Of a stretch of DNA of 64,000 nt, positions 5,370 through 51,810 are shown in pieces. Source of the stretch: a virus; IMG/VR virus record IMGVR_UViG_3300031857_024892, positions 99,949 to 163,948 of that record. One strand, written 5' to 3'. Below the pieces are notes generated by a model. That model was given only the letters and a program-made list of their open reading frames with translations. It did no database searches and was not told where the DNA came from. A program made the translations under genes and the position numbers. How positions within the stretch are numbered: position 1 is the stretch's first letter; each line of letters begins with the position of its first letter.

Positions 5370-5377
5370 TTTAGGGT

Positions 5378-8447: not shown

Positions 8448-8478
8448 CCCGTGCGGGCCCAGCGCAACATGGTATAAT
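8448..8478 (+). promoter_or_regulatory. Phage promoter motif CCCGTG-N19-TATAAT
   Basis: CCCGTG (8448-8453), 19 nt, then TGG-TATAAT (8473-8478), directly after a strong terminator. It drives the sigma factor gene, which would make the regulator subject to its own promoter class if the sigma factor reads it. Confidence 0.75.
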
Positions 8479-8503
8479 AAAGACAGGAGGCAAGGAAGCA
8501 AGA

Positions 8504-10072: not shown

Positions 10073-10085
10073 AGGAGAAACACAC

Positions 10086-14843: not shown

Positions 14844-17800
14844 ATGAAGACGAAAGTTACCCTATCTGAGCAGCAATTAAGATCGCTGATACGTGATGTG
14901 TTAATTGAAGCACCCGTTCCTGAGGGTGCTGGAGATGATTTTAATTCTCTAGTTACTCCAGCAGTCAGAGATCAGCTTGAAACTACGATCCAATATCTTG
15001 GGAAATTCATAGATCCCACGGGCGTTGCGGGAAGCACTAGGTTCAAAGCAAAACTGTGGGTGCACATCATGAATTCGCCGCCTCACATTTGCAAGTCAGG
15101 CAATACGGAGATGGAAGGAGGCATAAAGTTTATAGGCTATCAAGTTCCTGAAGCTGCTTCAAATGATTTAGGTCCCGATGCACTTCTCATTAATTTGGTC
15201 AATTTTATCGCGTGCGCCTTCGCGCAGGGTAAAGAAGTTTCTATTAACACGTTTAGTGGTCCAAAGAAACTAAAACCTAACTGCTCTCTGTATTCACTTG
15301 CAATTGGTGATAGTGCTTACATTGGATCAATGGATCCAGGACAGGTAGAGATCTACAGAGATCCCGCGATTAATTTCACAGTACATGATGTTAAAACTCC
15401 AGCGGGTCAATCAGAATACATCAAAAATGTTGTCGCAAAGCCAGATGTTCTTAGTAAGATCATTCCTGAAATCAAGATGATAGAGGGTGCCGGTGGTAAA
15501 CCAATCCCTAAGCTAGATTATGCTAATGAAGATGCAAAGAAAAAGCTAGGTGATCTTATCAAGCAACAACTTGAAGGTGTTCAAGCAAGACTCCGCGAGC
15601 AGATCAATAAATTCAACACACCGCAGATGCAATACTATCTCTACGAGCCACTTCTGCGGCCAACTGCATGGATGTCTAATCCTGATTTATCTGAGCCCAC
15701 ATCATCACCGTGGTGGGCGGCATGGGAAGCGTGCAACATTTTTGCTAGGACAGTTGATACCTATAAAGACCCAGTGAGCCAGAATGCAGCATGCGCTGCA
15801 ATGGTGTTAAACATGGCCAATCAGGCAAAGAAGGGTGTTGCGTTTAGAGCAACAGATAGAGGTTGGTCATCAGAGGCACGCGGTGGAAGTTATCAGACAC
15901 TTCTTGAATCGCTATCGGGTAATGAATTACGTGTCTTCTTAACTGAGGCACAATTAAAGAGATTAATACACTCGGCACTGTCTTTATCAAGACTAGATGA
16001 AGTAACACCGCCGCCGTCCTGGTCGTCGGCACTAGATATTGCTGAGAAAATTCCTGGTGTTGGGGGTTTAGTAAAAGCTGCTAGATCGATTGGATCACTT
16101 GGCGGTGATGCAGAACAAGCAACGGGCGCAGCAGGAGCAGCCGCAAGAGACACAGAAGCGATTAGAGCGCTTGCAGGTGCAGTAAAGACTAAGACAGCTG
16201 CAGCAGGACTTGATACAGCGCTGGTAGGTGCATCAAGAGTTGTCAAAGCAATTAATCCAAGTGAAGCAGATCAAAGAATTGCTGCACTAACGACACGGCT
16301 CGTACAGCAAACTTATGACACTCTATTCAGAACCACTGATGCTATGGACGTTTTTATTGATAATTTAGCAAATAGCGTTGGTGACCAGGTTGGAAGACTC
16401 GCTGCAAGTCGAAATTTTAATCAGACTCAAGTTGATGCTGTTGTTAATTTCTGTGTCGAGTCTGTCAAGTTCACCCTAAGAGAGACCTTAGCAGGAAATG
16501 CCGATGCTGCGGGTCTAGATGCTGCAAGAAATGCATTGATTGCGGCAGATCCTCAAGACCTTTTAGGTACATTCCTGACAAGTCCATCAACTACACCCAT
16601 GGTTAAAGAAGCTGTAAAAGGGCAAATTATAGAAGTTTCTGACAGTATCCTTAAAGATCCAAGCTTCGCACCTGTTTCAACATTTGCAAAATCAACAGTC
16701 ATCGACACTCTCAACGGTCAACTTGATGATGTGGGTCTAAAACTTTCTCCCGATGGAACAAAAATTACATTTCCAAGAAGCAATTCGCCAACCACAGAAT
16801 ATGCTGTTCTAGATATAAGAAGAACACTTGAGAAATATGAAAGTCAACTAGCACAAGCTGCATCATCCGGCGCTCCGCCAATATTTACGACTGATACTGT
16901 AAAGCTGCGGTCTTTTCTTGATTCAACATTTAAGAGATCTGATGCCGACGGAATTGCTAAGTTTAGAGAAATTCTAGACGGTATTGATGAAACTGTAGGT
17001 GCACAGCCTGCCAAGAAAATAACGACTGATTTACTGGAGACTGTAAGCGGTGGGGTTGTTGATCTTTTAGAGATAACTTTGTATCCTACGTTGACAAGTC
17101 AGGCAACGAAGGCAGCTAGACAAGTCCCAGGTGCAACAGGTGCAGCAAAGGCATCTAGGTATGCGGACTTAATATTGGGCGGAGGAACGTCATCGACAGC
17201 GTCTTGGCTTCAATCAAAAATGGTGATTCAAGATATTCTCGGCACATGGCGCCGCGGCGGCGTCCTCTCAAAAGGATCAGCTGTACTTAAAGTTGCCTCT
17301 GTTGCGCTCTTCACAGCGCCTAAGACTAGAGCCGATATTGGACGTGGAATTTTGACAGGATCAGGTTGGATACTTACAAAATTAGGAGCGTCTAGCTTCG
17401 GTCCCAAGCTTATGAGAGCAGGCCGTCTTAACAAATACCTCATACCTAGGATTGTCGGAGATGGCGCCATTTTTTTGCTCTTTTCTCCGCTTGTTGCCGA
17501 TAAAGTTATGCAAAACGATCCTCTAGCAAGAGCTTTATATGCAGATTTATTTGAGAGAGGCGGCTATACAGAATTTGGCGGTCTTGCTAGAATGGCATTT
17601 GATGTGATCAATGAGTTAGGAAGATCTCTAGATGTTGATCAAGAATTAAAAGATTACTTGAAGTTTGTTGCGGACGGGCAGGCACCCGAAACAATGCGTT
17701 TAGGTTTTCGAAATTTATTAGCGACACAGCTGGGCACACTTTCTGATACACAGCTTGAACAGATGTTTGAAATTATAGAACCTGATGCAAATCTTAGTAG

Positions 17801-18521
17801 ATTAGGACCTACAGCTGAGTTTATAACACAACAAACTGACAAATTAGGCGGCGATTTTGGTGATGCACTAAAAGGCTTAGCAGACTTAACCTTTGATCAA
17901 TCACAAGAAGACATATCAGGCTTAATTGTAGACGTTGAAAACTTAAAGCAGGAAGCTGCACAACTTGCTGCTGAGATCAGTAGATTTGGTCAATCGGCGC
18001 AAAACAATAAGACATTGACAGCACTTAAGCAAAGTAGAGTGCAAGTTATCAGTCAAGTTCTTCGTCTGCTTGACAACATGATGCCAAGTGGGACATCAAT
18101 ACCGCTCGTTGATGCGAGCTCAGCAGTCTCGCAAATTGCAAAATATGAAGATGCACTGACAAAAGATTATAGAAGAGAGCTTGCGGCAGGACCCACGTCA
18201 GGACTATTTAATTGGGCTGATCGTGTTAATCCCGATAATCTATTTTACTTAGCTGTTACTGCAGGAAGTCCCGTTATACCCGACGTCGAAGATCCTGCTA
18301 TTATGAGTCAGCTTGGTGCTTCAGCCCTATACAATGGGCCTGGTCGTTATCAAGACCCGGGTGAGCTTGCTGACCTCCCACAAGACTTGCAAGTTGATAT
18401 CGGAACACTGACTCAAAAAATGACAGAGCTCTTTGCAGATGTCTATAAGATTAACATGGCTGTTAATCCACCACCTCCACCAGAGAGCGGAACAGAGGCA
18501 AAAGGTGAACAAAATCCCTAG
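14844..18521 (+). CDS. Giant candidate virion protein with N-terminal and internal packaging tags
   Basis: 1225 residues, ATG after GGGAGGAG. The N-terminus VTLSEQQLRSLIRDVLIE|A is an amphipathic helix ending in an (L/I)xE cleavage site. A second copy, LTEAQLKRLIHSALSLSRLDE, lies inside at residues 366-386, so the protein may be two tagged proteins fused into one frame, perhaps cut apart in the prohead. Residues 1-360 form a compact mixed domain with several Cys. The remainder is long, Ala/Thr-rich and helical. Hydrophobic stretches near 820-900 (VASVALFTAP, GAIFLLFSPLVADKV) could enter a membrane during ejection. The end is Pro-rich. No enzyme motif is seen. Base composition is more AT-rich than its neighbours. 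Confidence 0.8.
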   Translation: MKTKVTLSEQQLRSLIRDVLIEAPVPEGAGDDFNSLVTPAVRDQLETTIQYLGKFIDPTGVAGSTRFKAKLWVHIMNSPPHICKSGNTEMEGGIKFIGYQVPEAASNDLGPDALLINLVNFIACAFAQGKEVSINTFSGPKKLKPNCSLYSLAIGDSAYIGSMDPGQVEIYRDPAINFTVHDVKTPAGQSEYIKNVVAKPDVLSKIIPEIKMIEGAGGKPIPKLDYANEDAKKKLGDLIKQQLEGVQARLREQINKFNTPQMQYYLYEPLLRPTAWMSNPDLSEPTSSPWWAAWEACNIFARTVDTYKDPVSQNAACAAMVLNMANQAKKGVAFRATDRGWSSEARGGSYQTLLESLSGNELRVFLTEAQLKRLIHSALSLSRLDEVTPPPSWSSALDIAEKIPGVGGLVKAARSIGSLGGDAEQATGAAGAAARDTEAIRALAGAVKTKTAAAGLDTALVGASRVVKAINPSEADQRIAALTTRLVQQTYDTLFRTTDAMDVFIDNLANSVGDQVGRLAASRNFNQTQVDAVVNFCVESVKFTLRETLAGNADAAGLDAARNALIAADPQDLLGTFLTSPSTTPMVKEAVKGQIIEVSDSILKDPSFAPVSTFAKSTVIDTLNGQLDDVGLKLSPDGTKITFPRSNSPTTEYAVLDIRRTLEKYESQLAQAASSGAPPIFTTDTVKLRSFLDSTFKRSDADGIAKFREILDGIDETVGAQPAKKITTDLLETVSGGVVDLLEITLYPTLTSQATKAARQVPGATGAAKASRYADLILGGGTSSTASWLQSKMVIQDILGTWRRGGVLSKGSAVLKVASVALFTAPKTRADIGRGILTGSGWILTKLGASSFGPKLMRAGRLNKYLIPRIVGDGAIFLLFSPLVADKVMQNDPLARALYADLFERGGYTEFGGLARMAFDVINELGRSLDVDQELKDYLKFVADGQAPETMRLGFRNLLATQLGTLSDTQLEQMFEIIEPDANLSRLGPTAEFITQQTDKLGGDFGDALKGLADLTFDQSQEDISGLIVDVENLKQEAAQLAAEISRFGQSAQNNKTLTALKQSRVQVISQVLRLLDNMMPSGTSIPLVDASSAVSQIAKYEDALTKDYRRELAAGPTSGLFNWADRVNPDNLFYLAVTAGSPVIPDVEDPAIMSQLGASALYNGPGRYQDPGELADLPQDLQVDIGTLTQKMTELFADVYKINMAVNPPPPPESGTEAKGEQNP

Positions 18522-23015: not shown

Positions 23016-23246
23016 GTGACAGGGCAGAAGAAGAGAACAGGGCGAAGACGACTTGCTGTGGGTGATCTTGTTGAACACATCAATAAGCAGCATCCAGATC
23101 ATGGTAAGATCGGCATGGTTACCCGAGTCACTGACCAGACACAGATGATGAGAATAGCTTTTGTGATGGTTGAAGGCACAGAGCGTGTCTGGTTCATGGG
23201 TGACTTTGTGAAACTGAAGGGAGGCGAAGATGATGAAGCCGTCTGA
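23016..23246 (+). CDS. Small SH3/KOW-like protein (76 aa)
   Basis: GTG start without a Shine-Dalgarno. MTGQKKRTGRRRLAVGDLVE has a basic extension before the GDLVE...GKIGMVTRVTDQ barrel signature. It is a dispersed member of the MKPGDL-type family. Overlaps the next gene by 17 nt. Confidence 0.65.
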   Translation: MTGQKKRTGRRRLAVGDLVEHINKQHPDHGKIGMVTRVTDQTQMMRIAFVMVEGTERVWFMGDFVKLKGGEDDEAV

Positions 23247-23748: not shown

Positions 23749-24262
23749 GAGAATTGAAGATCAGCCTGCACCCACAGGTGATGGAACACCTGTCTGGGAT
23801 CTTGTCGTCTCTGATATGAAGGAGAGAGACAACTTGGGTAGGCAGCGTTATGGCACGCCGCTTCGAACCTGGAACGGTCGTGATGCGCTTGTCGATGCCT
23901 ACCAGGAGATCCTCGACCTTGCTGTCTACGTCCGCCAGGAGATTGAGGAGCGGCGGTCGATCCAGCAGATCTGCGAGCACGTGGCTCTCATTCCAGGCGC
24001 TGAAGATTGCACATCCCAGAATGTCATAGAGACGCTGGGAGAGATTGAAGAACGTGTCCACATGCTTGAAGCATCCAACAAGGATCTGAGGAAGCGCCTG
24101 ACAGCACTGCAGAACGAGTCGTCCTACGACGCAGGATTTAGGCGTGGATGCCAGGCGACATTGGAGCTAGTGGAGCGAGTGCAAGGAAAGCACGTCAGCA
24201 ACGAGCTACTTGAGAGCGCGATGAACCTACGGAGCAACCACAGTGGACGCTCGGAAGGATGA
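23741..24262 (+). CDS. Probable MazG-like/all-alpha NTP pyrophosphohydrolase
   Basis: 173 residues; GTG start overlapping the previous stop. The region RDNLGRQRYGTPLRTWNGRD followed by DALVDAYQEILDLAVYVRQE is a recurring phage motif of the all-alpha dNTP pyrophosphohydrolase type, with Asp and Glu for Mg. The second half is a coiled coil. It may hydrolyse dNTPs; the exact substrate is unknown. Confidence 0.6.
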   Translation: MTKRIEDQPAPTGDGTPVWDLVVSDMKERDNLGRQRYGTPLRTWNGRDALVDAYQEILDLAVYVRQEIEERRSIQQICEHVALIPGAEDCTSQNVIETLGEIEERVHMLEASNKDLRKRLTALQNESSYDAGFRRGCQATLELVERVQGKHVSNELLESAMNLRSNHSGRSEG

Positions 24263-24437
24263 GATCCGCGAGGGTGATCTTGTCCGTGTCTGGGAGACGC
24301 GAGAGGGTGTCGTTGTGGGCCGTTATGGCGACGGATACTACGAGGTTCTCGTAAAGCTGCCCCAGGGAAGGTCACTCGTTAGGGCATGTCGGGAGCAGGA
24401 TCTCTCTCTTGTGCAGCATCCTGCTGTAAATGAGTGA
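24243..24437 (+). CDS. Small SH3-like protein (64 aa)
   Basis: GTG start after GAGCAACCACA, overlapping the previous end by 20 nt. MDARKDEIREGDLVRVWETR then GVVVGRYGDGYYEVLVKLPQ. It has the EGDLVRV...GVVVG...YEVLV barrel pattern. Function unknown. Confidence 0.6.
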   Translation: MDARKDEIREGDLVRVWETREGVVVGRYGDGYYEVLVKLPQGRSLVRACREQDLSLVQHPAVNE

Positions 24438-24443
24438 TAGTTA
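24438..24443 (+). promoter_or_regulatory. Putative leaderless late element TAGTTA
   Basis: TAGTTA followed by 5 nt and the ATG at 24449. There is no Shine-Dalgarno. The same arrangement occurs at 53571, 56214 and, as TAATTA, at 57221. Confidence 0.5.
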
Positions 24444-24448
24444 TCTGC

Positions 24449-24898
24449 ATGCTACGTAGATACATCATCAATGAGATTAGAAAGGTCATCCTCAACGAGA
24501 AAGCGAAGGAAGACAAGAAGAGCGGCGGCACCTGTCCTCGAGCAACGCAGGACTCTGTCCTTAACACAAAGAACCGCAACAAGGCGATCAAGAAGCTGGG
24601 CTACGGTCCTGCTAATCCTGCAAAGCCTGGTGACTTCTGGGAAGAGAAAGCAGAGATGTGGGATGACATTCCTGTCTCTGAAGCGGAGGATATGCTGTGC
24701 GGGAACTGCGCTGCCTTCGACATCTCACCCAAGATGCTTAACTGCATCGAGAAGGGGCTTGAGGGCGGTGATACCAACGTGAAGGGTTGGGACACGATCA
24801 AGGCGGGCAAGTTGGGCTACTGCAAGATGCACCACTTCAAGTGTGCTGCCAAGAGGACGTGTGACACATGGGTCACGGGCGGACCGATCAAGAAGTGA
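24449..24898 (+). CDS. Tagged Cys-rich protein, iron-sulfur or zinc candidate
   Basis: 149 residues. The N-terminus MLRRYIINEIRKVILNE|K is the packaging-like helix ending in LNE. Six Cys follow in the pattern MLCGNCAAFDIS, MLNCIEKG, LGYCKMHHFKC and KRTCDTWVTGGP, resembling a HiPIP-like family I recall from phages. The Cys could bind a [4Fe-4S] cluster or zinc. An upstream ATG at 24434 lies before the putative late promoter and is rejected. Confidence 0.7.
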   Translation: MLRRYIINEIRKVILNEKAKEDKKSGGTCPRATQDSVLNTKNRNKAIKKLGYGPANPAKPGDFWEEKAEMWDDIPVSEAEDMLCGNCAAFDISPKMLNCIEKGLEGGDTNVKGWDTIKAGKLGYCKMHHFKCAAKRTCDTWVTGGPIKK

Positions 24899-28172: not shown

Positions 28173-28415
28173 ATGAAGGCAGGTGACATCGTCAAGCTGA
28201 ACAGCTGGTTTCATCAAACTGTCTCAGTATTCCCAGAGCCTAATCCACAGACAACAATCGGTGACATTGAGTATCCAAGAGGGACGATTGCTCTAATTCT
28301 CGAGGTTCTCGACAGTCACGAAGATGACGGCCCAAGCATGAATACGTACATGCGTGTTCTTGTCGGAGGAAAGGTGGGTTATGTCCGTGCATATTCCTGC
28401 GAGGAGATCAAGTGA
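28173..28415 (+). CDS. MKPGDL-family small barrel protein (80 aa)
   Basis: MKAGDIVKLNSWFHQTVSVF, with YPRGTIALILEVLDSHED and VLVGGKVGYVRAYSCEEIK. Shine-Dalgarno AGGAGAG. Three such genes are consecutive here (28173-28848). Overlaps the next by 4 nt. Confidence 0.7.
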   Translation: MKAGDIVKLNSWFHQTVSVFPEPNPQTTIGDIEYPRGTIALILEVLDSHEDDGPSMNTYMRVLVGGKVGYVRAYSCEEIK

Positions 28416-28627
28416 ACGTGGGTGACCTGGTCAGGTTCTGGACACCTGCGGTCCCAAAGAGCCTGCAACACAATGGGATCATCATAGATGTCACTCACGA
28501 GAATGTGGGCGGTCTAAAGATGGGGAGCATGTACCACGTGCTCACATCCCGTGGGCAGATCGTGACAATGACTGTGGGTGGCCTGGAGCTCGTGTCACCC
28601 GTGCAAGACAACTTGAGCGTGGTATGA
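28412..28627 (+). CDS. MKPGDL-family small barrel protein (71 aa)
   Basis: GTG start; MNVGDLVRFWTPAVPKSLQH, NGIIIDVTHENVGG and SMYHVLTSRGQIVTM. Its 3' end overlaps the CCCGTG promoter for the next gene. Confidence 0.7.
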   Translation: MNVGDLVRFWTPAVPKSLQHNGIIIDVTHENVGGLKMGSMYHVLTSRGQIVTMTVGGLELVSPVQDNLSVV

Positions 28628-28647: not shown

Positions 28648-28848
28648 ATGAAGCCCGGTGACCTTGTGCAATACACACTACGGCGAAGAGGTTCGACTGC
28701 GCCCTACCCAATCGGGATCCTGCTTGAGATCCGGCCTAAGTCGCATCCACTCATTCGGGAACGCGAGCACGACTACATCGTCCTAATCGGTGGCGAGACA
28801 CGAACTACGACACGACGATATCTAAAACCGATCGAGGAGGCACAATGA
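28648..28848 (+). CDS. MKPGDL-family small barrel protein (66 aa)
   Basis: MKPGDLVQYTLRRRGSTAPY with IGILLEIRPKSHP and YIVLIGGETRTTTRRYLKPI. Unusually basic for the group. Overlaps the phosphoesterase start by 4 nt. Confidence 0.7.
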   Translation: MKPGDLVQYTLRRRGSTAPYPIGILLEIRPKSHPLIREREHDYIVLIGGETRTTTRRYLKPIEEAQ

Positions 28849-29519
28849 AGATCTGGCATTTGAGCGACACTCACATGAACCACGACCAGCTCGTCATTCC
28901 CGATGGTATCGACATGGTGATCCACAGCGGAGACGCCTCGAACTGGCGTGACCCGTACCGTAACGAGTCAGAACTTCGTGCCTTCATCGACTGGTTTGCT
29001 ACCCTGTCGATTCCCCACAAGATCTTCGTCCCAGGAAACCACGACACGTCCCTTGAGAAGGGCCTGATCACGCGTGAGCTGATTGAGCACCGTGGGATCC
29101 ACCTCCTCATCAACGAAGAGAAGACGATCGAGGGGCTGCGGATCTGGGGAAGCCCATTCACGCCACGCTACGGCGACTGGTCATACATGCGGGACCGTGG
29201 GACGATCAACCGGCTCTGGGATGAGATCCCGGAGAGCCTCGACATCCTCGTCACGCACGGCCCACCCTACGGCGTCCTCGACGCAACCTACACCCATCAC
29301 AACAAGGTGGAGCTTGTGGGTTGCAGTGCACTCCGGAAGCGGGTCGCGAAGGTCCCGCCCCGGTTCATGCTCTTCGGGCACGTCCACTCAACGGATGACA
29401 TCCGCAATGCGGGAACGCGGACGGTGTGCGGGCTCCCTACGATCTTCAGCAACGGATCCTGCTGTGACGACGGACGGATGGGTGTGGTGACGAGCCACGG
29501 GAACGTGTTGGAAGTGTGA
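28845..29519 (+). CDS. Calcineurin-like metallophosphoesterase
   Basis: 224 residues; ATG after GAGGAGG. Motifs: HLSDTHMNHD, IHSGDASNWRD, VPGNHDTSLE, LVTHGPPYG and LFGHVHSTDD, a complete dimetal site. It resembles the phosphoesterases with a THGPP loop found in bacteria and phages. The substrate could be a cyclic nucleotide or nucleic-acid end; not determinable here. Confidence 0.9.
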   Translation: MKIWHLSDTHMNHDQLVIPDGIDMVIHSGDASNWRDPYRNESELRAFIDWFATLSIPHKIFVPGNHDTSLEKGLITRELIEHRGIHLLINEEKTIEGLRIWGSPFTPRYGDWSYMRDRGTINRLWDEIPESLDILVTHGPPYGVLDATYTHHNKVELVGCSALRKRVAKVPPRFMLFGHVHSTDDIRNAGTRTVCGLPTIFSNGSCCDDGRMGVVTSHGNVLEV

Positions 29520-29554
29520 TAGGATAGCCTATTTAATTGCTAGAGGATGATGCA

Positions 29555-30292
29555 ATGAGATCAGGTTTCGGCAAAGGTTTTCAAGGACCTAATGTGGGCC
29601 TCACGGCAGGTTTCAACTTCGGGTTCAATCGGCCCGATCAACTCAGCACGTCTGGCCTCATGCTACACCTTGATGCGTCAAATGCTCTCAGTTACCCCGG
29701 ATCAGGTGCAACCTGGTTCGACCTCGCGACAGATCCTGCAGTGAACAACGCAACGCTCATCAACACACCCACTTTCTCAACTGACAAGGGCGGAAGCTTC
29801 AACTTCGCGAAAGCCTCATCCGAGAGTGCCACAGTCTCAGGAACCGGGCTCGTTCCACAGACTGCCTACACGAAGGCAGTCTGGTTCAACCTTACCGATC
29901 TGGTGAGTGACAACAACCTCGTAAGCTCCGAGACGGGTGGTCACTTCATGTATTTTGCAGGTACGAACCGCCTCTACTCAGGCCACACAAACTGGGCCGT
30001 CTTCTCTGCATATCCGTCAAGCCGGACTTTCTCTGCAGGTGTGTGGTACTTTGCAACTCTCACTTTCAACACGACCGACGGGATGACGCTCTATGTCAAT
30101 GGTGCTTTCGACAGCTCCTACACGGCGAACAAGGCTGCCCACGGTGGCGACGGGTCGGTGAACATCGGTCGTTTTGGCGTCGGTAACTTCCTCAATGGCA
30201 ACATCGCGCAGGTCCTCACGTACAACAGGTCACTTACATCGACCGAAGTTGCTGACCTCTTCAACATCACTAAGGGAAGATTTGGTATCTGA
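29555..30292 (+). CDS. LamG/concanavalin-like adhesin or virion decoration protein
   Basis: 245 residues; ATG 29555 follows GAGGATGATGC. After a Gly/Phe-rich start (GKGFQGPNVGLTAGFNFG) comes a LamG fold: GLMLHLDASNALSYPGSGAT, FNLTDLVSDNN, WYFATLTFNTTDGMTLYVNG and GNIAQVLTYNRSLTSTEVAD. Such domains bind glycans and are common on phage tails and heads. Likely exposed on the virion. Confidence 0.8.
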   Translation: MRSGFGKGFQGPNVGLTAGFNFGFNRPDQLSTSGLMLHLDASNALSYPGSGATWFDLATDPAVNNATLINTPTFSTDKGGSFNFAKASSESATVSGTGLVPQTAYTKAVWFNLTDLVSDNNLVSSETGGHFMYFAGTNRLYSGHTNWAVFSAYPSSRTFSAGVWYFATLTFNTTDGMTLYVNGAFDSSYTANKAAHGGDGSVNIGRFGVGNFLNGNIAQVLTYNRSLTSTEVADLFNITKGRFGI

Positions 30293-30354
30293 TTAATAAT
30301 TTGGTTGAACATCTGCACAATCAAAAGCTAAGATAAACTAAATTAGGAGTAAAA

Positions 30355-31053
30355 GTGTACCCTCAAGATGAGTTTGTCAAGCTGCTAAATGATCTTCCAG
30401 ACTGGTTTGTTGAGAAAGTTGTAAGCTTCGGCCAGTCTAGTAAGATTACGGCAGGCAATGAGCAAGAGGTTATTATAGAGAAACTTTTTAATAACCTAGG
30501 TGTCCCAGGAATTTCAGCTACGTGCGGTGACGCAATAGACAATACAACACGTGTCAAGAAGTCACACGTAGATGTTGCTGTTTTCCATAACAATCGGCCT
30601 ATTATTGCAATTGATGTGAAAAATGGTGGTGCAAATGGCACGGAATCTGCAGGATCTCGTGCTAATGATGTTGAAGCACGTGTAGAGGGAGCAGCCCAGA
30701 AAGGATATGAATACTATGTCTATCTCTTTACACCGCAGTCGGCATGCAATACTCTTGATCACGTTGACATTGCAATGAAGAGATTGGCAACCTCAACGAT
30801 CAGTTGTAAGTTGATTACCGCGAGCTTAAAAGAGAATGACCCTAACCTGCAGGTATTGTGCAATGTAATCGCTCAGAATACTGGCGTAAGCGTTGACACA
30901 ACGATGGTCATGAATGTCTACAATAAGTTGAATGTGCAGCCAAGTCTCAAGGATAGAATTAAAAGCAAGTCAGAGAAAGTCTACCGTACTGCACTTGAAA
31001 GAGAAGAAAAGAAGATAACTAGATCAGGCAAGAAAGCTTCGCGCAATCGTTGA
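30355..31053 (+). CDS. Probable type II restriction endonuclease, PD-(D/E)XK fold
   Basis: 232 residues; GTG start after TTAGGAG. KSHVDVAVFHNNRPIIAIDV-K gives the catalytic D73...D87-V-K89 triad. EQEVIIEKLFNNLG upstream can supply the acidic helix residue. The tail is Lys-rich. A Dam-class methyltransferase starts 49 nt later, so the two look like a restriction-modification pair. The pair is more AT-rich than its surroundings, which suggests acquisition. Confidence 0.7.
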   Translation: MYPQDEFVKLLNDLPDWFVEKVVSFGQSSKITAGNEQEVIIEKLFNNLGVPGISATCGDAIDNTTRVKKSHVDVAVFHNNRPIIAIDVKNGGANGTESAGSRANDVEARVEGAAQKGYEYYVYLFTPQSACNTLDHVDIAMKRLATSTISCKLITASLKENDPNLQVLCNVIAQNTGVSVDTTMVMNVYNKLNVQPSLKDRIKSKSEKVYRTALEREEKKITRSGKKASRNR

Positions 31054-31057
31054 TAAA

Positions 31058-31086
31058 TTAATAAACATCTCTAACCCATCTATAAT
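31058..31086 (+). promoter_or_regulatory. Sigma70-like promoter for the methyltransferase
   Basis: TTAATA (31058-31063), 17 nt, TATAAT (31081-31086), just before the TAGGAG of the methyltransferase. A separate promoter would let methylation be expressed independently of the nuclease. Confidence 0.5.
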
Positions 31087-31101
31087 TGTCTAGGAGACAA
31101 G

Positions 31102-31929
31102 ATGAAAAAGCTTTTTAAGTGGCCAGGCGGTAAATCATCTGAGATCAAGCAGATCACAGCCTTGATGCCAACCTCATATGATAGGATCGTTGAACCTTTT
31201 GCAGGTTCTGCAGCGCTGTCATTTCACTTAGAGCGACCTGCCATTATAAATGATCTTGATGCGCAGGTGATGAATTTTTACGCCTGTCTCCAGAAAGATT
31301 GGCAGCAGTTGCACAGCCTTATTGAACAAGACAGGAAGTGTCCATACATGCTAAACAGCGATCCTGCCAGAGAGACAACACGATCACTTGAAGACGCATA
31401 CTATGCTGCTAGAACACGTCTAAATTCTGCAAAGTCTCTTAGCTTGTCTAGTCTTGACTTTCAATCGGCATCTGACTTCTATGTGACGCGCGCGCTCTCG
31501 TTCTCAGGCATGATCAGAAACTCACCTAAAGGTGGGTCGAATGTCCCTTATGGGTGGTATAAGGACTTTAAAAATAGCTTAAATGTTAATGTGAGCAATC
31601 TTATTAGCTCTTGGACGATCTTAAACGGATCTTATAGCGCCGTGTCTGCACACCTCACTGATGGTGATTTTGTGTTTCTAGACCCGCCATACCGCAGCAG
31701 AGCAGGCTATCAGACACCCGACTGGAACGATGTTGACCATCAAAATTTCATTGACTGGACAAAGTCTTTAAAATGTAAGTGGATGATTGTGCACACAGAC
31801 GATGATCTATATCGTGCAGAATTTGCAAGCTATAAGATCATCACAAAATCACACATGTATTCTCAGAACTTCATGGGAAGAAATAATTCTGGTTCTAAAG
31901 TAGATCATATTTACATTCTCAACTATTAG
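31102..31929 (+). CDS. DNA adenine methyltransferase, Dam (D12) class
   Basis: 275 residues. FKWPGGKSSEIKQITALMP and EPFAGSAALSFHL bind S-adenosylmethionine. FLDPPYRSRAGYQ carries the catalytic DPPY at 194-197. INDLDAQVMNFY follows the family. It transfers a methyl group to adenine N6, probably at the site cut by the upstream nuclease. GATC is the commonest target of the class, but specificity cannot be read here. Confidence 0.9.
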   Translation: MKKLFKWPGGKSSEIKQITALMPTSYDRIVEPFAGSAALSFHLERPAIINDLDAQVMNFYACLQKDWQQLHSLIEQDRKCPYMLNSDPARETTRSLEDAYYAARTRLNSAKSLSLSSLDFQSASDFYVTRALSFSGMIRNSPKGGSNVPYGWYKDFKNSLNVNVSNLISSWTILNGSYSAVSAHLTDGDFVFLDPPYRSRAGYQTPDWNDVDHQNFIDWTKSLKCKWMIVHTDDDLYRAEFASYKIITKSHMYSQNFMGRNNSGSKVDHIYILNY

Positions 31930-31952
31930 AACTTCATAAGTCCAGAATGCAA

Positions 31953-31984
31953 CTCGTGCAACCCGACTCACCATAGGGTATAAT
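31953..31984 (+). promoter_or_regulatory. Phage promoter variant CTCGTG-N20-TATAAT
   Basis: CTCGTG (31953-31958), 20 nt, TATAAT (31979-31984). The ATG at 31991 is 6 nt after the -10, so the array transcript would begin leaderless. Confidence 0.55.
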
Positions 31985-31990
31985 ACTACC

Positions 31991-32368
31991 ATGGTCAAGA
32001 AAGGCTACACTGCAGTTCCCAAAGGCTCTCGCGCAGTCGCGTGGACACCCCGGCGTTGCAACAAGAACAGAGTAGTAATCCCACGTGGGGTAAGTGGTGT
32101 AGTGACGGGTAAGAGTAACGTCCGTGATTGCAACTGGACCAGGGCCGTTATCGGGGGTGTGGTCCACACTCTCCATCCTTGGGATTGGGACTTCACACCC
32201 ATCAGAGTAGGCGAACTTCGCCGCTGGAAGGATGGACGGGCCGGAACATTCTTGGTTGTCAGTATCGAATCACTGTCATCTTGCCATTGTCTCGGGGACG
32301 GCAATGTCTTTGGGACGACCTGCAGGTACCTCGAGGACCTCACGGAGGTGATCAGTGAAACCCGGTGA
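31991..32368 (+). CDS. First gene of the small-barrel array (125 aa)
   Basis: MVKKGYTAVPKGSRAVAWTP, VVIPRGVSGVVTG and VGELRRWKDGRAGTFLVV look like two consecutive small barrels, which explains the doubled length. It ends SETR, whose codons overlap the next MKPGD start by 14 nt. No Shine-Dalgarno. Confidence 0.65.
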   Translation: MVKKGYTAVPKGSRAVAWTPRRCNKNRVVIPRGVSGVVTGKSNVRDCNWTRAVIGGVVHTLHPWDWDFTPIRVGELRRWKDGRAGTFLVVSIESLSSCHCLGDGNVFGTTCRYLEDLTEVISETR

Positions 32369-32534
32369 TCTCGCAGTCGTCAAGTGCAAGCGGGTTCCCA
32401 ATCTTAGCGGGAAGGTCGTCCTCCTTGTCGAGTGGCAGAAGCCCCCAGCAGCATTTCAGGGTAGTCGCTGGCTCTGCCTTGTTGATGGGACAGCACGATC
32501 CATCCAGTCAGGCTGGTTGAAGGAGATCAAGTGA
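32355..32534 (+). CDS. Array member 1 (59 aa)
   Basis: GTG start; MKPGDLAVVKCKRVPNLSGK, VVLLVEWQKPP and WLCLVDGTARSIQSGWLKEI. The shortest member. It ends IK and joins the next gene by a 4-nt GTGA overlap rather than 14 nt. Confidence 0.7.
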   Translation: MKPGDLAVVKCKRVPNLSGKVVLLVEWQKPPAAFQGSRWLCLVDGTARSIQSGWLKEIK

Positions 32535-32767
32535 AGCCCGGCGATCTTCTGCGAACGATCCGTGGCGGGTTCATCCTACCGGACCCGGAGTACTGGACGA
32601 ACGACGAGACCGGGACGTCCCTCCCGCTCGCTCGGATGGGCGAGCTCGTCCTCGCCGTGAAGTTCGACGGCTCTGACAGCGGGAGCTGGGTGAGGGTGAT
32701 CCATCCCACCCACGGCATCCGAGATATCCTGCTGGGTGATCTGGAGCCTGTCAATGAAACCAGGTGA
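32531..32767 (+). CDS. Array member 2 (78 aa)
   Basis: GTG start; MKPGDLLRTIRGGFILPDPE, then LPLARMGELVLAVKFDGSDS and RVIHPTHGIRDILLGDLEPV. Ends NETR over the next start. Confidence 0.7.
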   Translation: MKPGDLLRTIRGGFILPDPEYWTNDETGTSLPLARMGELVLAVKFDGSDSGSWVRVIHPTHGIRDILLGDLEPVNETR

Positions 32768-32972
32768 TCTCGTCACGCTCAACCACCACCGCCGCTATAC
32801 TGGAATCGACATGGCCGATGGTTACTTCATCGATATCCCAGGCGGTGCCATTGGCGTCTACATGGGACTTACCACCGATCGTGAGTACAACATCTATGAT
32901 CTGGTCCTCACTAAGGGCAGGTTGGTGAAATGCGCCCGGAGCGTCTGGAGTGTCCTCGATGAAACCCGGTGA
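32754..32972 (+). CDS. Array member 3 (72 aa)
   Basis: ATG inside the NETR codons of member 2. MKPGDLVTLNHHRRYTGIDM, IPGGAIGVYMGLTTD and VLTKGRLVKCARSVWSVL. Ends DETR. Confidence 0.7.
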   Translation: MKPGDLVTLNHHRRYTGIDMADGYFIDIPGGAIGVYMGLTTDREYNIYDLVLTKGRLVKCARSVWSVLDETR

Positions 32973-33156
32973 CCTTGCCCGTCTCAAGGATATCGGCATC
33001 CACAGCGGAGAGATTGTGATGATAGTCAAGGTGCATCCCTGGCGTGATACTCCCAATGCCTTCGGTTCGTGGATGACAGTTGACTTCATGTTCGACGGAC
33101 AAGTCGTTGAAGAATGCGACTCGAGCTTCCTGGAGGTGATCGATGAAACCCGGTGA
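32959..33156 (+). CDS. Array member 4 (65 aa)
   Basis: MKPGDLARLKDIGIHSGEIV, MIVKVHPWRD and TVDFMFDGQVVEECDSSFLE. Ends DETR. Confidence 0.7.
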   Translation: MKPGDLARLKDIGIHSGEIVMIVKVHPWRDTPNAFGSWMTVDFMFDGQVVEECDSSFLEVIDETR

Positions 33157-33343
33157 TCTCGTTCAAGTCATAAAGGGCGTCCATGGTCAGGGTGAGATCG
33201 GAGTCGTCCTGGGCGAGGTCGAAGAGTCACGTAACTGGGACTTGTCCTGTCCTCTGCTCGAGGTTCTCTTTCACGATGGTCCTCGTGACTGCCACCCGTC
33301 GAATCTCCAGAAGCCTGATGGTAGGACCCGGAGGCGTGAATGA
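33143..33343 (+). CDS. Array member 5 (66 aa)
   Basis: MKPGDLVQVIKGVHGQGEIG, VVLGEVEESRNWD and LLEVLFHDGPRDCHPSNL. Ends RTRRRE instead of DETR and joins the next by a 4-nt ATGA overlap. Confidence 0.7.
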   Translation: MKPGDLVQVIKGVHGQGEIGVVLGEVEESRNWDLSCPLLEVLFHDGPRDCHPSNLQKPDGRTRRRE

Positions 33344-33567
33344 ACCTGGGTGATCTTGTTAGGCTCGACATTCCCGGCCAGCGTGCTCACGGAAAGATCG
33401 GCATTGTCGTGGGCAAGGAGCTAAAAGCCACCTACGATTGGATGCGGGACCACATGGGTCAACCTGTCAAATCTTTCAGCTACGAGGTCATGGTTGGAAC
33501 TGAGGTCTGGCGAGTGGGTTATAATGAACTCCTAGCGGAAACGGAGTGGGACGATGAAGCGCGGTGA
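33340..33567 (+). CDS. Array member 6 (75 aa)
   Basis: MNLGDLVRLDIPGQRAHGKI, GIVVGKELKATYDW and YEVMVGTEVWRVGYNELLAE. The HGKIGIVVG core is KOW-like. Ends DEAR. Confidence 0.7.
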   Translation: MNLGDLVRLDIPGQRAHGKIGIVVGKELKATYDWMRDHMGQPVKSFSYEVMVGTEVWRVGYNELLAETEWDDEAR

Positions 33568-33802
33568 TCTCGTTATCCTGACAAACTGTAACACTAGGTT
33601 CGAGGGTTCGTACGGTTACGAATTCGGTTGTAATCCCAAAGGTGACTTAACGCTAAAAGACGAAGTCTGGGTTCCAAACGGAACTATCGGAATGTACTGT
33701 GAGGATCCCAAGGACGACGGAGGAAAGTTCGGTGTCCTCGTCCACGGTCGCCTCCTCTGGTTCGACCAGATCGATTCGAGGGCCATCAATGAAACCGGGT
33801 GA
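33554..33802 (+). CDS. Array member 7 (82 aa)
   Basis: MKRGDLVILTNCNTRFEGSY, WVPNGTIGMYCEDP and FGVLVHGRLLWFDQIDSRAI. Ends NETG. Confidence 0.7.
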   Translation: MKRGDLVILTNCNTRFEGSYGYEFGCNPKGDLTLKDEVWVPNGTIGMYCEDPKDDGGKFGVLVHGRLLWFDQIDSRAINETG

Positions 33803-33989
33803 TCTAGTTCGCATAAACCGTAATATCCGCAATGAGAAGCCAGAGACCCGCGCCATCCAAGAAGGTGCAGTTTTCATGGTTGTCGGACCCGACAAGACAT
33901 TCTCACGGGATGTTGTCTACATCATGACACCCTTCGGTCTGCAAAGTATTCACGTCTGCTACCTGGAAAAGCTCGATGAAACCCGGTGA
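33789..33989 (+). CDS. Array member 8 (66 aa)
   Basis: MKPGDLVRINRNIRNEKPET, IQEGAVFMVVGPDK and VVYIMTPFGLQSIHVCYLEK. Ends DETR. Confidence 0.7.
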   Translation: MKPGDLVRINRNIRNEKPETRAIQEGAVFMVVGPDKTFSRDVVYIMTPFGLQSIHVCYLEKLDETR

Positions 33990-34170
33990 CATCGTCCGTT
34001 TCAAGAGTGGCACGCCCATCTTCAAGCGTCAGGGTGAGACACTCGCGCTCATCACTCGGGTCGTTCCCCTGGATGAAGGAAGAACAACTTACCTCTGTCT
34101 TCTCATGCCTACCGGCGAAGTGAAGGCGAGAAGGATCGAGGATGTCGAGGTGGTCATTGAAGCCGGGTGA
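33976..34170 (+). CDS. Array member 9 (64 aa)
   Basis: MKPGDIVRFKSGTPIFKRQG, ETLALITRVVPLDEG and YLCLLMPTGEVKARRIEDVE. Ends IEAG. Confidence 0.7.
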   Translation: MKPGDIVRFKSGTPIFKRQGETLALITRVVPLDEGRTTYLCLLMPTGEVKARRIEDVEVVIEAG

Positions 34171-34390
34171 TCTGGTCATCGCGAAGGCAGCCAAGGCCAA
34201 GAGGCGGGATCCTCCTCCCGCAATCATGCTCTACAACTGGAGGACGAATGTCTACCACCCGTGGAAGAACGGAAATCTAGGCATGATCATCGATCTCGAC
34301 CCGAAGACGGAAGGTGTGATCGTCATGGCTGATGGGAGCGTGGGCTGGGTGTCGCAGGTGATCATCGAGGTGGCTGATGAAACCGGGTGA
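34157..34390 (+). CDS. Array member 10 (77 aa), TTG start
   Basis: The start TTGAAGCCGGGTGAT keeps the 14-nt overlap geometry with TTG in place of ATG. MKPGDLVIAKAAKAKRRDPP, GNLGMIIDLDPKTEG and VIVMADGSVGWVSQVIIEVA. Ends DETG. Confidence 0.7.
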   Translation: MKPGDLVIAKAAKAKRRDPPPAIMLYNWRTNVYHPWKNGNLGMIIDLDPKTEGVIVMADGSVGWVSQVIIEVADETG

Positions 34391-34625
34391 TCTGGTCACA
34401 ATCCGCAGGATGAACCTCTCCAATACAGCTCGCATCGCCTACATCGAAGTCTACGATAGGTACGACCACATCGCAGTCCCCCACAAAAAGAAGTGGGAAC
34501 ACGGTGAGGTTGGCATTCTCCTTGAGGGACGGGACGACAAGCGGGAGATGGTCCAAGTCCTCCACTGCGGACGGGTAGGGTGGGTCGACGAAGAAATGCT
34601 GCGGGTGATCGATGAAGCCGGGTGA
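34377..34625 (+). CDS. Array member 11 (82 aa)
   Basis: MKPGDLVTIRRMNLSNTARI, HGEVGILLEGRDDK and VQVLHCGRVGWVDEEMLRVI. The GRVGWV strand matches members 3, 7 and 10. Ends DEAG. Confidence 0.7.
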   Translation: MKPGDLVTIRRMNLSNTARIAYIEVYDRYDHIAVPHKKKWEHGEVGILLEGRDDKREMVQVLHCGRVGWVDEEMLRVIDEAG

Positions 34626-34803
34626 TCTCTGCATGATCGTGCATCCTGCCAGGCGTGAGTGGAGCGACTCCGACGTCTGCATGATCCTCAGGCCCGTTAG
34701 TCATGAGGACGGCATCGACATCTACTCACACTGCGACTGGTGGGTCATGTGGGACGGGCGTGAGACGGCCTGGGCAAAGACGGATCTGGAGCCCATCGAA
34801 TGA
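34612..34803 (+). CDS. Array member 12 (63 aa)
   Basis: MKPGDLCMIVHPARREWSDS, DVCMILRPVSHED and WWVMWDGRETAWAKTDLEPI. Ends IE with a 4-nt overlap to the next gene. Confidence 0.7.
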   Translation: MKPGDLCMIVHPARREWSDSDVCMILRPVSHEDGIDIYSHCDWWVMWDGRETAWAKTDLEPIE

Positions 34804-35087
34804 ACTTCCTCCGCAGGGTCTATCGCTGGCTCTACGTCCGCGTCAAAGGTCACTATCCGCTCGGGTCTCTCGTCAAGTTCAAGCCGGGTATCGGATTCGA
34901 CGGGATCTACTGGAAGTCTCCGGGAGACCCAAGATTTCACGCGATCGGGTTGGTGATCGATGGGTGGCGGAAGAATGTACACCCGTTGCCGTCGGGTGTG
35001 TTTGCTGAGGGAAGTGTGGTGATCTTCGACGGTGAGCGATACGACATGGAGAACTGGGAACTCGAACCCATCGATGAACCCGTGTAA
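34800..35087 (+). CDS. Last array gene with basic N-terminal extension (95 aa)
   Basis: MNFLRRVYRWLYVRVKGHYP precedes a LGSLVKFKPG barrel start, then IGLVIDGWRKNVH and GSVVIFDGERYDMENWELEP. The basic aromatic N-terminus could be membrane- or nucleic-acid-binding. The stop is part of the next promoter (CCCGTGTAA). Confidence 0.65.
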   Translation: MNFLRRVYRWLYVRVKGHYPLGSLVKFKPGIGFDGIYWKSPGDPRFHAIGLVIDGWRKNVHPLPSGVFAEGSVVIFDGERYDMENWELEPIDEPV

Positions 35088-35110
35088 ATGGGCGCGACAT
35101 GTGGTACAAT
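35079..35110 (+). promoter_or_regulatory. Phage promoter motif CCCGTG-N20-TACAAT
   Basis: CCCGTG (35079-35084) encodes the last Pro-Val of the upstream gene. TGG-TACAAT is at 35105-35110. Confidence 0.7.
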
Positions 35111-39866: not shown

Positions 39867-40133
39867 GTGATCGACAAAAAGGTAGTGATCGGTGACTTTA
39901 GGGGTGTCAAGCGAGGTATGCTCGTCCGTCTAACTGAGTCGGGCGGGCATTCTAAGCGCGGTGATGTGGCACTTGTCTTAGAGACTGTCCTAATACCCCG
40001 CAACGTCAATATGAATGAGCACTACGACCCACTGCTTGTTGTCCTTAATCGAGGCTTAACATCTCGGTGGCCTGTTGAATTTGTTGAGATCATTCCAGAT
40101 GAGATGACAGATGAGCAGCATCAACTGCGGTGA
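39867..40133 (+). CDS. MKPGDL-related small protein (88 aa)
   Basis: GTG start after AGAGAGC. MIDKKVVIGDFRGVKRGMLV, RLTESGGHSKRGDVALVLET and DPLLVVLNRGLTSRWPVEFV. The RGMLVRL...RGDVALVLE pattern is barrel-like. Its final codons GGTGA overlap the GDLV codons of the next gene. Confidence 0.6.
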   Translation: MIDKKVVIGDFRGVKRGMLVRLTESGGHSKRGDVALVLETVLIPRNVNMNEHYDPLLVVLNRGLTSRWPVEFVEIIPDEMTDEQHQLR

Positions 40134-42542: not shown

Positions 42543-42836
42543 ATGGAAGAGATAAGAGTACAGATTGGTGATCTAATATCAATTGAACCATGGGATTGTG
42601 AGGGTATTGAAAATCCCTATGGTTATAGAAACTATGATAAGAGAGATTGGGATCCCTTAAAGAAGAAGATGTTTGAGAAGCTTAGCGGCAAGGTTCGAAT
42701 CACCGCAGGCTCAAAGGCACTTATAACTGGAAGAGAAGAAGTTGACCTCGGTAATAATGAGGACGTCATGTTCTGGTGTCTAGTTGAAGGGCGACAACTG
42801 ATAGTTTCAAGTCGCTTCATTCAGCGCCTTGATTAG
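42543..42836 (+). CDS. MKPGDL-related protein (97 aa)
   Basis: MEEIRVQIGDLISIEPWDCE, KVRITAGSKALITGREEVDL and MFWCLVEGRQLIVSSRFIQR. Larger, AT-rich relative of the small-barrel group. It ends against the convergent endonuclease gene with a 4-nt overlap. Confidence 0.55.
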   Translation: MEEIRVQIGDLISIEPWDCEGIENPYGYRNYDKRDWDPLKKKMFEKLSGKVRITAGSKALITGREEVDLGNNEDVMFWCLVEGRQLIVSSRFIQRLD

Positions 42837-47801: not shown

Positions 47802-48147
47802 TGTTGATGCTGTCATCAAAGAGCTGAAGGCGGATCGATACATCAGCTTCAACGTCCTAATGGGCGCGATGTCCCAGCTCAAGAAGAATGTGTCGCAGCT
47901 AGAGGATCGCATCCAACGGGAAGGTGACAGCATTAACTTTTCAGCCAACTCTGACCTCCTCGAGAACGCGATGCATCTCTGGAAAGCGTCGCACAGGATC
48001 TATCAGATCGACAGCACCATAGCGCAACTCACACACCACACACAAAAAATCGTAGAAGCTGCTTCCGTTGCTGCAGGAGACAACAAAGAAGATGCGCAAG
48101 GCGGTAACACAGCATGCGATTTAAATGCAACAGAGACAAAGCCATAA
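47788..48147 (+). CDS. Coiled-coil protein (119 aa)
   Basis: MSVADVDAVIKELKADRYIS, MSQLKKNVSQLEDRIQREGD and SHRIYQIDSTIAQLTHHTQK. Starts inside the previous gene's end (14-nt overlap). Function unknown. Confidence 0.6.
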   Translation: MSVADVDAVIKELKADRYISFNVLMGAMSQLKKNVSQLEDRIQREGDSINFSANSDLLENAMHLWKASHRIYQIDSTIAQLTHHTQKIVEAASVAAGDNKEDAQGGNTACDLNATETKP

Positions 48148-48382
48148 CACAGACGCAGATATAGAGCCACAAGTTGGTGATCTTGTGCGAGTCACTGGGA
48201 AAGAGTGGTTTGGGCACCCCATGATGATGTCGATGGGATTGATCGTTGATAAGCAGGACAGAACGGGTGAACCGGTTGAGTGCGCCTGTCTTGTCCTCAT
48301 AAGAGGCGTTAGCATGTGGATCTACATCAGTGACCTCACCTTCGAGGCACGTGCGGGCGACGGCGACGGTGGTACAATGTAG
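48125..48382 (+). CDS. MKPGDL-related small protein (85 aa)
   Basis: MQQRQSHNTDADIEPQVGDL then VRVTGKEWFGHP, MGLIVDKQDRTG and CACLVLIRGVSMWIYISDLT. A polar extension precedes the GDLVRV barrel. Its end overlaps a promoter. Confidence 0.65.
   Translation: MQQRQSHNTDADIEPQVGDLVRVTGKEWFGHPMMMSMGLIVDKQDRTGEPVECACLVLIRGVSMWIYISDLTFEARAGDGDGGTM
48348..48378 (+). promoter_or_regulatory. Phage promoter variant CACGTG-N19-TACAAT
   Basis: CACGTG (48348-48353), 19 nt, TGG-TACAAT (48373-48378). ATG at 48385 is 6 nt after the -10, so the mRNA may be leaderless. Confidence 0.6.
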
Positions 48383-48384: not shown

Positions 48385-48654
48385 ATGGTGAGGCTCAAAG
48401 CGGTGCAACGACCTGTGATTGGGACGCTGGTGCGCCTTAAGTCGTGGAACAAAGAAGCTTACATTAAAGTTGCTTCTCACACGCCTGACAGTGAAGACAC
48501 TTACTCACTTGTCCCAAGCGGCGCAACCGCCATGGTCGTAGGATACCACACACGGGCCTGGGACAGAGCGGACATCGTTCCCGTTGTTACAGTAGGCAAC
48601 GTCACAGGCTGGATCTTCATGGATGAATGGGAGGTGCTCGATGACACAGATTAA
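48385..48654 (+). CDS. MKPGDL-related small protein (89 aa)
   Basis: MVRLKAVQRPVIGTLVRLKS, ATAMVVGYHTRAWDRAD and PVVTVGNVTGWIFMDEWEVL. Ends DDTD over the next start with the same 14-nt overlap as the large array. Confidence 0.65.
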   Translation: MVRLKAVQRPVIGTLVRLKSWNKEAYIKVASHTPDSEDTYSLVPSGATAMVVGYHTRAWDRADIVPVVTVGNVTGWIFMDEWEVLDDTD

Positions 48655-48856
48655 AAAGGGTGACCTTGTTAGATCAGTCGGTGAAGATTGGGCAAACAAC
48701 TATCTAGACAAGATATTCCTGGTGATAGACGTCGTCAAGATCAATGAATTTGTTGATGACTTATCACCGCTAGACGGTGAAAGCATTCTCATTCTGCTCG
48801 ACCACCTCGGCAGCGGAACAATTCGAGCATACACCGATGAGGTTGTTAAAGTTTAA
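48641..48856 (+). CDS. MKPGDL-related small protein (71 aa)
   Basis: MTQIKKGDLVRSVGEDWANN, KIFLVIDVVKINEF and ILLDHLGSGTIRAYTDEVVK. ATG overlaps the previous DDTD codons. Confidence 0.65.
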   Translation: MTQIKKGDLVRSVGEDWANNYLDKIFLVIDVVKINEFVDDLSPLDGESILILLDHLGSGTIRAYTDEVVKV

Positions 48857-49080: not shown

Positions 49081-49243
49081 GATGACCAAAGAAGAAGCAG
49101 AGTTTATTGTTCTCCAGTACCTCGACGCGGGGTTGCTTGATAAAGCTGAGGAGCTTGCTGAGAAGATCGGCATGAAGGGCAGCGAATGGTCGGATCTGCG
49201 CGAGACGCAGTACATCGACTGGAACAACGAGTATGACGAGTAG
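49070..49243 (+). CDS. Small helical protein (57 aa)
   Basis: ATG 49070 follows GGAGGCAGC. MRSEMTKEEAEFIVLQYLDA, then DKAEELAEKIGMKGSEWSDL. Overlaps both neighbours by 11 nt. Confidence 0.6.
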   Translation: MRSEMTKEEAEFIVLQYLDAGLLDKAEELAEKIGMKGSEWSDLRETQYIDWNNEYDE

Positions 49244-49421
49244 TGTCCTCCGACATGACCTGATACCTGGTCAACTCCGCATCTGGTCAGATACAGGTGC
49301 TGTGTTTGTTGTCGTCGAGGTTGAAGGTGTTAGGTGCGATCTTCTGCAAGATGGCAAGATCGACCGGCGGTATGCAGGTTTCGTATCAAGTAACAGTGAG
49401 ATCGTCGTGGAGGCAGCATGA
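49233..49421 (+). CDS. Small barrel-like protein (62 aa)
   Basis: MTSSVLRHDLIPGQLRIWSD, TGAVFVVVEVEGVRCDLLQD and a VVEAA end. IPGQLRIW replaces PGDLVRI. Overlaps the next gene by 4 nt. Confidence 0.6.
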   Translation: MTSSVLRHDLIPGQLRIWSDTGAVFVVVEVEGVRCDLLQDGKIDRRYAGFVSSNSEIVVEAA

Positions 49422-51806: not shown

Positions 51807-51810
51807 CAAG

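Follow-up and report, generated by a model that had tools for sequence, protein, structure and literature searches.

The array at 31991–35087

The DNA analysed here (the window, 64,000 nucleotides (nt)) forms the last 64 kb of a virus contig 163,948 bp long, IMG/VR record IMGVR_UViG_3300031857_024892; all records compared with it are metagenomic contigs. The first 100 kb of the record encode a terminase, a portal, a major head protein, two tail-sheath proteins, a ribonucleotide reductase and a DNA polymerase, and these head, tail, reductase and polymerase genes together indicate a large contractile-tailed phage. The subject of this study is an array of small genes, g01 to g14, at positions 31991 to 35087 of the window, where all fourteen open reading frames are present on the plus strand, head to tail, with intact frames and zero gaps. 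The sequence-only reading had described every one of these genes as MKPGDLV-like. This holds for 12 of the 14, whose products start with M/V/L-(K/N)-x-GDL/I; g01 and g14 start otherwise, yet match the family profile (E 9e-4 and E 1e-11, respectively).

The head gene g01 (31991–32368; 125 amino acids (aa)) joins a barrel resembling the bacterial SH3 domain (SH3b) to a second small domain of the GELRRWKDG type, and its orthologue also heads the arrays of the compared records G003, G018 and L117. Two genes with GTG starts follow, g02 (32355–32534; 59 aa), which overlaps g01 by 14 nt, and g03 (32531–32767; 78 aa), which overlaps g02 by 4 nt. Overlaps of 14 nt then introduce g04 (32754–32972; 72 aa), g05 (32959–33156; 65 aa) and g06 (33143–33343; 66 aa). 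The orthologues of g05 in G018 and L117 have other neighbours; g06 has an orthologue in G003, and L117 lacks it between g05 and g07. The overlap of g07 (33340–33567; 75 aa) with g06 is 4 nt here, and in L117 its overlap with g05 is 14 nt. Each of the next six genes overlaps its predecessor by 14 nt: g08 (33554–33802; 82 aa), g09 (33789–33989; 66 aa), g10 (33976–34170; 64 aa), g11 (34157–34390; TTG start, 77 aa), g12 (34377–34625; 82 aa), which is the nearest paralogue of g11 and is modelled as an SH3-like barrel, and g13 (34612–34803; 63 aa). The L117 copy of g10 is 98% identical in DNA and has a different gene upstream, and orthologues of g13 occur in G003, G005, G007, G018 and G028, with a different upstream gene in each. 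The last gene, g14 (34800–35087; 95 aa), overlaps g13 by 4 nt and carries an aromatic and basic, helix-like N-terminal stretch, MNFLRRVYRWLYVRVKGH, ahead of its barrel.

Two side observations concern the ends of the array. The N-terminal stretch of g14 and its orthologues, RRVYRWLYVRVKGHYP (34800–34860), looks amphipathic and may bind membrane. A second small-protein family, with the pattern PGQLRRW(K)..FLVV....SEVIS, is interspersed with the barrels; it is found at 49233–49421, at L074:4496-4714 and at L088:2788-3018, and is fused to the barrel as the second half of g01 (about 32210–32365).

A start box with stop codons in both other frames

Ten of the 13 joints in the array are overlaps of exactly 14 nt, and the remaining three are of 4 nt. 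The array genes have in common a 16-nt start box, ATGAARCCNGGTGAY, in which TGA stands at positions 2–4 and 12–14, one in each off-frame, and it is because the box stops both other frames that the overlaps measure 14 or 4 nt. An example of the junction, (R)TGAARCCNGGTGAYCTNGT at 32354–32375 on the plus strand, belongs to repeat families D1 and D2 and has TGA in both off-frames; further copies lie at 32530, 32753, 32958, 33142, 33339, 33553, 33788, 33975, 34156, 34376 and 34611. Across the compared records, overlaps of 14 nt occurred 51 times and overlaps of 4 nt 30 times, and any other value at most three times. In the seven records that were found without the motif, 23 of 39 adjacent pairs overlap by 14 nt and 6 of 39 by 4 nt. 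Among gene overlaps generally, 4-nt overlaps make up about 45% and 1-nt overlaps about 15% (PMC3887535), and 14 nt lies outside the favoured spacings (PMC12548453).

The box also accounts for a recurrent protein end. Read in the frame of the upstream gene, it encodes the tail IDETR, and tails of the form [ED][TASC][RG] end 40 of the 51 genes that precede a 14-nt overlap, none of the 30 that precede a 4-nt overlap and 11 of 163 others. The tails of orthologues track the neighbour (DETR, ECE or DEPG for g05; EPIE, DEAR or DESR for g13), and in L108 an unrelated 54-aa gene ahead of g13 likewise ends in FDETR. The motif is thus written by the start of the next gene; it results from the overlap and does not belong to the protein as such. 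Furthermore, Shine-Dalgarno matches upstream of the starts exceed those in control windows, and each such site lies within the last codons of the preceding gene.

The array proteins are predicted SH3-like barrels

The sequence-only reading had taken the array proteins for one kind of small barrel, and the structure models agree: the two members modelled, g12 and g01, share an SH3-like (KOW/Tudor-like) small-barrel fold, and unrelated folds were not found. The g12 model, made from 86 family sequences with a predicted local distance difference test (pLDDT) score of 77, has strands at residues 6–9, 44–53, 58–63, 66–71 and 75–77, which is the strand order of an SH3 barrel. Its top PDB matches are nearly all SH3, Tudor or KOW domains, mostly at Foldseek probabilities of 0.8–1.0, and the structural match reaches a Z score of 6.4 (root-mean-square deviation (rmsd) 2.9, 62 residues aligned); the absence of another family among the neighbours given is uninformative. 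Residues 1–70 of g01, the most divergent member, likewise form a bacterial-SH3-like barrel (Z 7.7, rmsd 2.6, 65 residues aligned), with SH3b-type domains among the top matches. Weak profile matches in the PDB are also mostly SH3-like (PsaE, NdhO, eL21 and SH3; E 0.05–1).

In predicted strand order, including a short C-terminal helix followed by a strand, the array proteins are like the known small barrels (SH3, bacterial SH3b, Tudor, KOW and PsaE/NdhO/NdhS). They differ from these families in having no significant sequence match to them and no peptide-groove signature that we could see, and in being free-standing phage proteins encoded in arrays. Conservation is confined to the start motif and the barrel core; the largest variation is in the first loop, between strands 1 and 2, which ranges from 2 to 39 residues, and beyond the start motif no polar position is conserved. 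This combination of conserved core, variable loop and lack of other conserved polar residues is more in keeping with a binding scaffold than with an enzyme.

Extent of the family

An iterated profile built from the array gave 93 matches at E<0.01 in the record and its relatives, and none among reversed proteins. Within the window 25 members were found at E<0.05, of which 11 lie outside the array. Ten scattered genes had been proposed from the sequence alone, and those at 23016, 28173, 28412, 28648, 42543, 48125 and 48641 are clear members; the gene at 24243 is weak, the one at 40111 is not significant (E 0.8), and the one at 14645 was not detected by the profile. Three members, at 39867, 48385 and 60028, are additional to that list. 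All scattered members are on the plus strand: 23016–23246 (E 3e-8), 24243–24437 (E 0.04), a profile-matched trio at 28173–28415, 28412–28627 and 28648–28848, the divergent 39867–40133 (E 1e-3), 42543–42836 (E 2e-7), a second trio at 48125–48382, 48385–48654 and 48623–48856 (E 1e-10, 6e-11 and 5e-6) and 60028–60288 (E 5e-7). Screening the record's first 100 kb for the motif gave no convincing member, and the matches that the profile search listed in the record all fall in the window part.

The paralogues of the array are 18–33% identical to g02, and the duplications are therefore old. Recent tandem duplication in the window was considered and rejected on the same ground, and tandem copies of 60–75% identity were seen only in L087, where they occupy 4222–5474 and 9968–10294 together with one in-frame two-barrel fusion and separate 15-nt tandem repeats.

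In Pfam, NCBIfam and PHROG, no family scored above its cut-off for any of 86 barrel members scanned, the best single scores being E 0.005, E 0.007 and E 3e-4, respectively. A tblastn search of three members against isolated phages found essentially no close relatives (best E 0.2). No member was found in two uncultured phages of 634–636 kb, Lak-B5, Xanthomonas X1, Stenotrophomonas CM1 or Pseudomonas pf16, and an uncultured phage of 642 kb has one weak member, which indicates that large phages do not share the expansion as a rule. Of 20 related or motif-sharing contigs (32–369 kb), 17 contain members. The gp39-like topoisomerase of the record is nearest to those of uncultured contigs (73–77% identity) and is 54–57% identical to those of the 634–642-kb uncultured phages.

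Relatives differ by whole genes

Copy number and content vary strongly among relatives; an array absent and unvarying in relatives, which would have counted against the sequence-only reading, was not what the comparison showed. The closest relative, L117 (IMGVR_UViG_3300047564_006327), is syntenic with the window, and its array consists of the promoter, g01, g05, g07, an unrelated 335-aa gene and g10, after which the contig ends; g02–g04, g06 and g08–g09 are missing cassette-wise, and the genes present in both arrays are 90–98% identical in DNA. In G018 the same promoter and g01 come first; behind them stand three further members, then g13 and g05, a GQLRRW gene, another two and finally g14. 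G005 has g12 followed by g14 and only then g13, and the order of g05, g12, g13 and g14 varies among G000, G018 and G005. The g13 cassettes of G003, G007 and G028 are about 92% identical from the ATG onward and unrelated upstream, and in other relatives with a swapped upstream gene identity begins 0–13 nt before the start codon. In L117, g05 has the GTG start of the gene that follows g01 in the window and the body of g05, and this hybrid places a crossover within TGAARCCCGGTGAYCT, inside the 16-nt box. Where the window has g08–g09, L117 (6733–7910) carries a start box together with a promoter-like CCCGTGCAAG and the unrelated 335-aa gene, which was apparently inserted within the array.

At fourfold-degenerate sites, 17 of 133 in the array genes and 115 of 302 in the flanking genes differ between the window and L117 (p 4e-8), which suggests that the array was exchanged later than its surroundings. 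The ratio of nonsynonymous to synonymous change (dN/dS) of orthologues is mostly 0.1–0.4, which is purifying selection; the proposal from the sequence alone that the genes are under selection for diversity thus fails at the level of orthologues. The diversity comes from gain, loss and exchange of whole genes and from length variation in one loop, and not from fast change within each gene.

A fixed promoter heads the array

A promoter of phage type, ACTCGTGCAAC-N-GGGTATAAT, was recognised from recurring TATAAT contexts; it heads the array (31952–31984, plus strand; this copy reads CTCGTG), and the combination of this promoter with g01 recurs in G003, G018 and L117. The motif CCGTG-N18-22-TAYAAT occurs six times in the window against 0.13 expected from shuffles. 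The next promoter of the type (35078–35110, plus strand) overlaps the end of g14 and bounds the transcription unit; a decayed extra junction that had been considered after g14 was dropped, because the sequence there is this promoter. The form CCCGTG(T/C)A-N-GGTATAAT, or a near variant, precedes g01 and genes for an exonuclease, a sigma factor, a tRNA, a ligase and a scattered barrel protein, is also present where g14 ends (sites at 4491, 22212, 28597, 35078, 49573, 55499 and 58646; that at 28597 lies within the first scattered trio), and is almost never found in the first 100 kb of the record. A promoter and terminator consensus scan around the array gave nothing above shuffles. Since the promoter type is common to the exonuclease, sigma factor, tRNA and ligase genes, the array is probably one non-structural (early or middle) transcription unit, judging from sequence.

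The sigma factor, of the sigma-70 type, is encoded at 8504 (region 8448–9238), and it may or may not read these promoters. Upstream of the array promoter, a Dam-type methylase gene (31102–31929) adjoins the array. It belongs to a block at 28845–31952, between a phosphoesterase gene and the array promoter, that also holds a LamG-like gene and an unassigned 232-aa gene; L117 lacks these genes.

Interpretation of the array

We favour, with a probability of roughly 0.55, the reading that the array is a reassorting operon of 14 paralogous single-domain SH3-like binders, carried as interchangeable cassettes behind a fixed promoter and g01. The operon architecture is well supported. A cassette would run from a start codon through the ribosome-binding site of the next gene, located in the last codons of the preceding one; any upstream frame joined to ATGAARCCNGGTGAY would terminate after 4 or 14 nt, and the box, as a repeat of 14–22 nt, could let recombination join any two cassettes. 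Homologous pairing at the boxes may then drive the changes in the array, and translation of the genes may be coupled. More tentatively, the double off-frame stops, the Shine-Dalgarno site supplied from upstream and the block of homology may form a self-terminating joint by which any cassette can be joined to any other, so that binders are dealt from a common pool without an integrase (integrases were not searched for). Taken together, four features suggest single-domain binders whose partners are diverse and changeable: a conserved core with a variable loop, gene turnover, purifying selection and a promoter of the non-structural kind. Each barrel would be a small binding module with a partner of its own, held by the loops and chiefly by the long variable one that joins strands 1 and 2; the partners may be mainly host proteins, defence proteins included, and the phage population would hold a common pool of binders and reshuffle the set in each genome. 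The array proteins are probably non-structural accessory factors in host interaction.

Several points weigh against this reading. Many of the records in the overlap counts had been retrieved by means of the box itself. Of the Gly codons that precede Asp, 60% are GGT in any case, and the second stop may have arisen through codon use and not through selection; selection for the GGT codon in the box was set aside as weak for that reason, and because the records were partly picked by the box. Model confidence is moderate (pLDDT 77 and 73), and Z scores of 6–8 identify the fold as an SH3-like barrel and no more closely. The GTG/ATG hybrid of L117 is the only case that pins a crossover inside the box, and a swap of neighbours that leaves genes intact must place the borders near start codons anyway. 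The lower silent divergence could partly reflect constraint, the dN/dS of g08 is 0.76, and in g10 the changes are too few for a judgement.

Of the roles that had been suggested from the sequence (decoys, anti-defence proteins and polymerase-binding factors), nothing specific in the sequence analyses points to any one. It is possible, though unlikely, that the barrels are KOW-like factors that bind RNA polymerase, ribosomes or nucleic acids, their copies tuning transcription and translation of phage or host. The pattern GDxV...GxxGxV of strands 1 and 2 is that of KOW, the structural neighbours include NusG, eL21, PHF1 Tudor and NdhS chains, and eL21 recurs among the weak profile matches. However, no KOW profile match is significant (PF00467 gives at best 14.1 bits, in one member, against a cut-off of 22.3, and a profile-profile comparison with a three-sequence KOW set gave a probability of 12%), most members are acidic (median pI 5.6, net charge -2) and so ill-suited to binding nucleic acids, and such factors are normally single and conserved, not present as 14 reassorting copies. 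We hold it equally doubtful that each cassette encodes a direct decoy or inhibitor of one anti-phage defence system. High turnover and sharing at low silent divergence mark anti-defence islands and are seen among the relatives here, and the methylase gene lies beside the array; but no family match emerged from the libraries searched, and turnover alone fits any accessory role. Less probable still is that the proteins are subunits of a heteromeric ring, shell or virion part made in equimolar amounts by translational coupling, because the set, number and order of genes vary between close relatives, where an obligate complex would keep its set, and the members lie outside the head and tail gene region. 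Non-adaptive amplification, by tolerated and decaying duplications at the repeated box, is very improbable: the box repeats would favour unequal crossing over and the copies are highly diverged, but all 14 frames are unbroken, most orthologues have a dN/dS well below 1 and the barrel core is conserved.

Among known systems, the closest architecture to the reassorting operon proposed here is the lambda nin chain of ATGA-linked accessory genes. The nin region (ninR) is cited as ‘a chain of interlinked genes’ (Kroger and Hobom 1982, per PMC8022706 and PMC7166090), and its small accessory genes, whose codons overlap, are a known case of a mosaic chain (PMC8022706; PMC7166090). The likeness lies in tightly packed small accessory genes (mostly non-essential in nin), ATGA stop/start overlaps, mosaic content and non-structural expression; in the array, a co-oriented chain, all 13 joints overlap by 4 or 14 nt. 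The array differs in that one paralogous fold fills the chain and in its longer double-stop box with mainly 14-nt joints. The nin genes are not known to form one family, and their joints are 4-nt ATGA overlaps. The family searches gave no sign of homology to nin genes, no direct comparison having been made. A fixed head promoter followed by a variable body of promoterless cassettes also resembles the gene cassettes of integrons, from which the array differs in that its joint is a 16-nt coding piece and not an attC site. What is new here is a chain of one paralogous fold outside the searched libraries, a double-stop start box and a crossover caught inside that box; no description of arrays of such paralogues in huge or jumbo phages was found in a literature search that mostly did not extend to subscription papers.

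Cassette arrays explain why MKPGDLV-type proteins fill long stretches of uncultured large-phage contigs, and the array shows a route by which whole small genes can be swapped while the reading frames stay intact. Should the barrels prove to be target-specific binders, such arrays would be a natural library of compact proteins that interact with the host or its defences, and also a readable record of recent exchange between phages.

Other features of the phage records

Two neighbouring tail-sheath genes (L003:10649-13765 and L003:13801-16767) stand in the same phage record. A di-haem cytochrome c peroxidase gene (62741–63709; CCP_MauG, E 1.5e-49) lies at the end of the phage contig; it may be an auxiliary metabolic gene, or this end of the contig may derive from a host. 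Finally, many otherwise unrelated proteins of the window have in common an LRxLIREVLLE-like terminal peptide, which is N-terminal in the genes at 2578–3348, 14844–18521, 24434–24898, 50757–51806, 51760–52473, 53582–55486, 56225–57205 and 57232–58089, C-terminal in those at 85–753, 1543–2361 and 58109–58654, and perhaps a capsid- or prohead-targeting tag.

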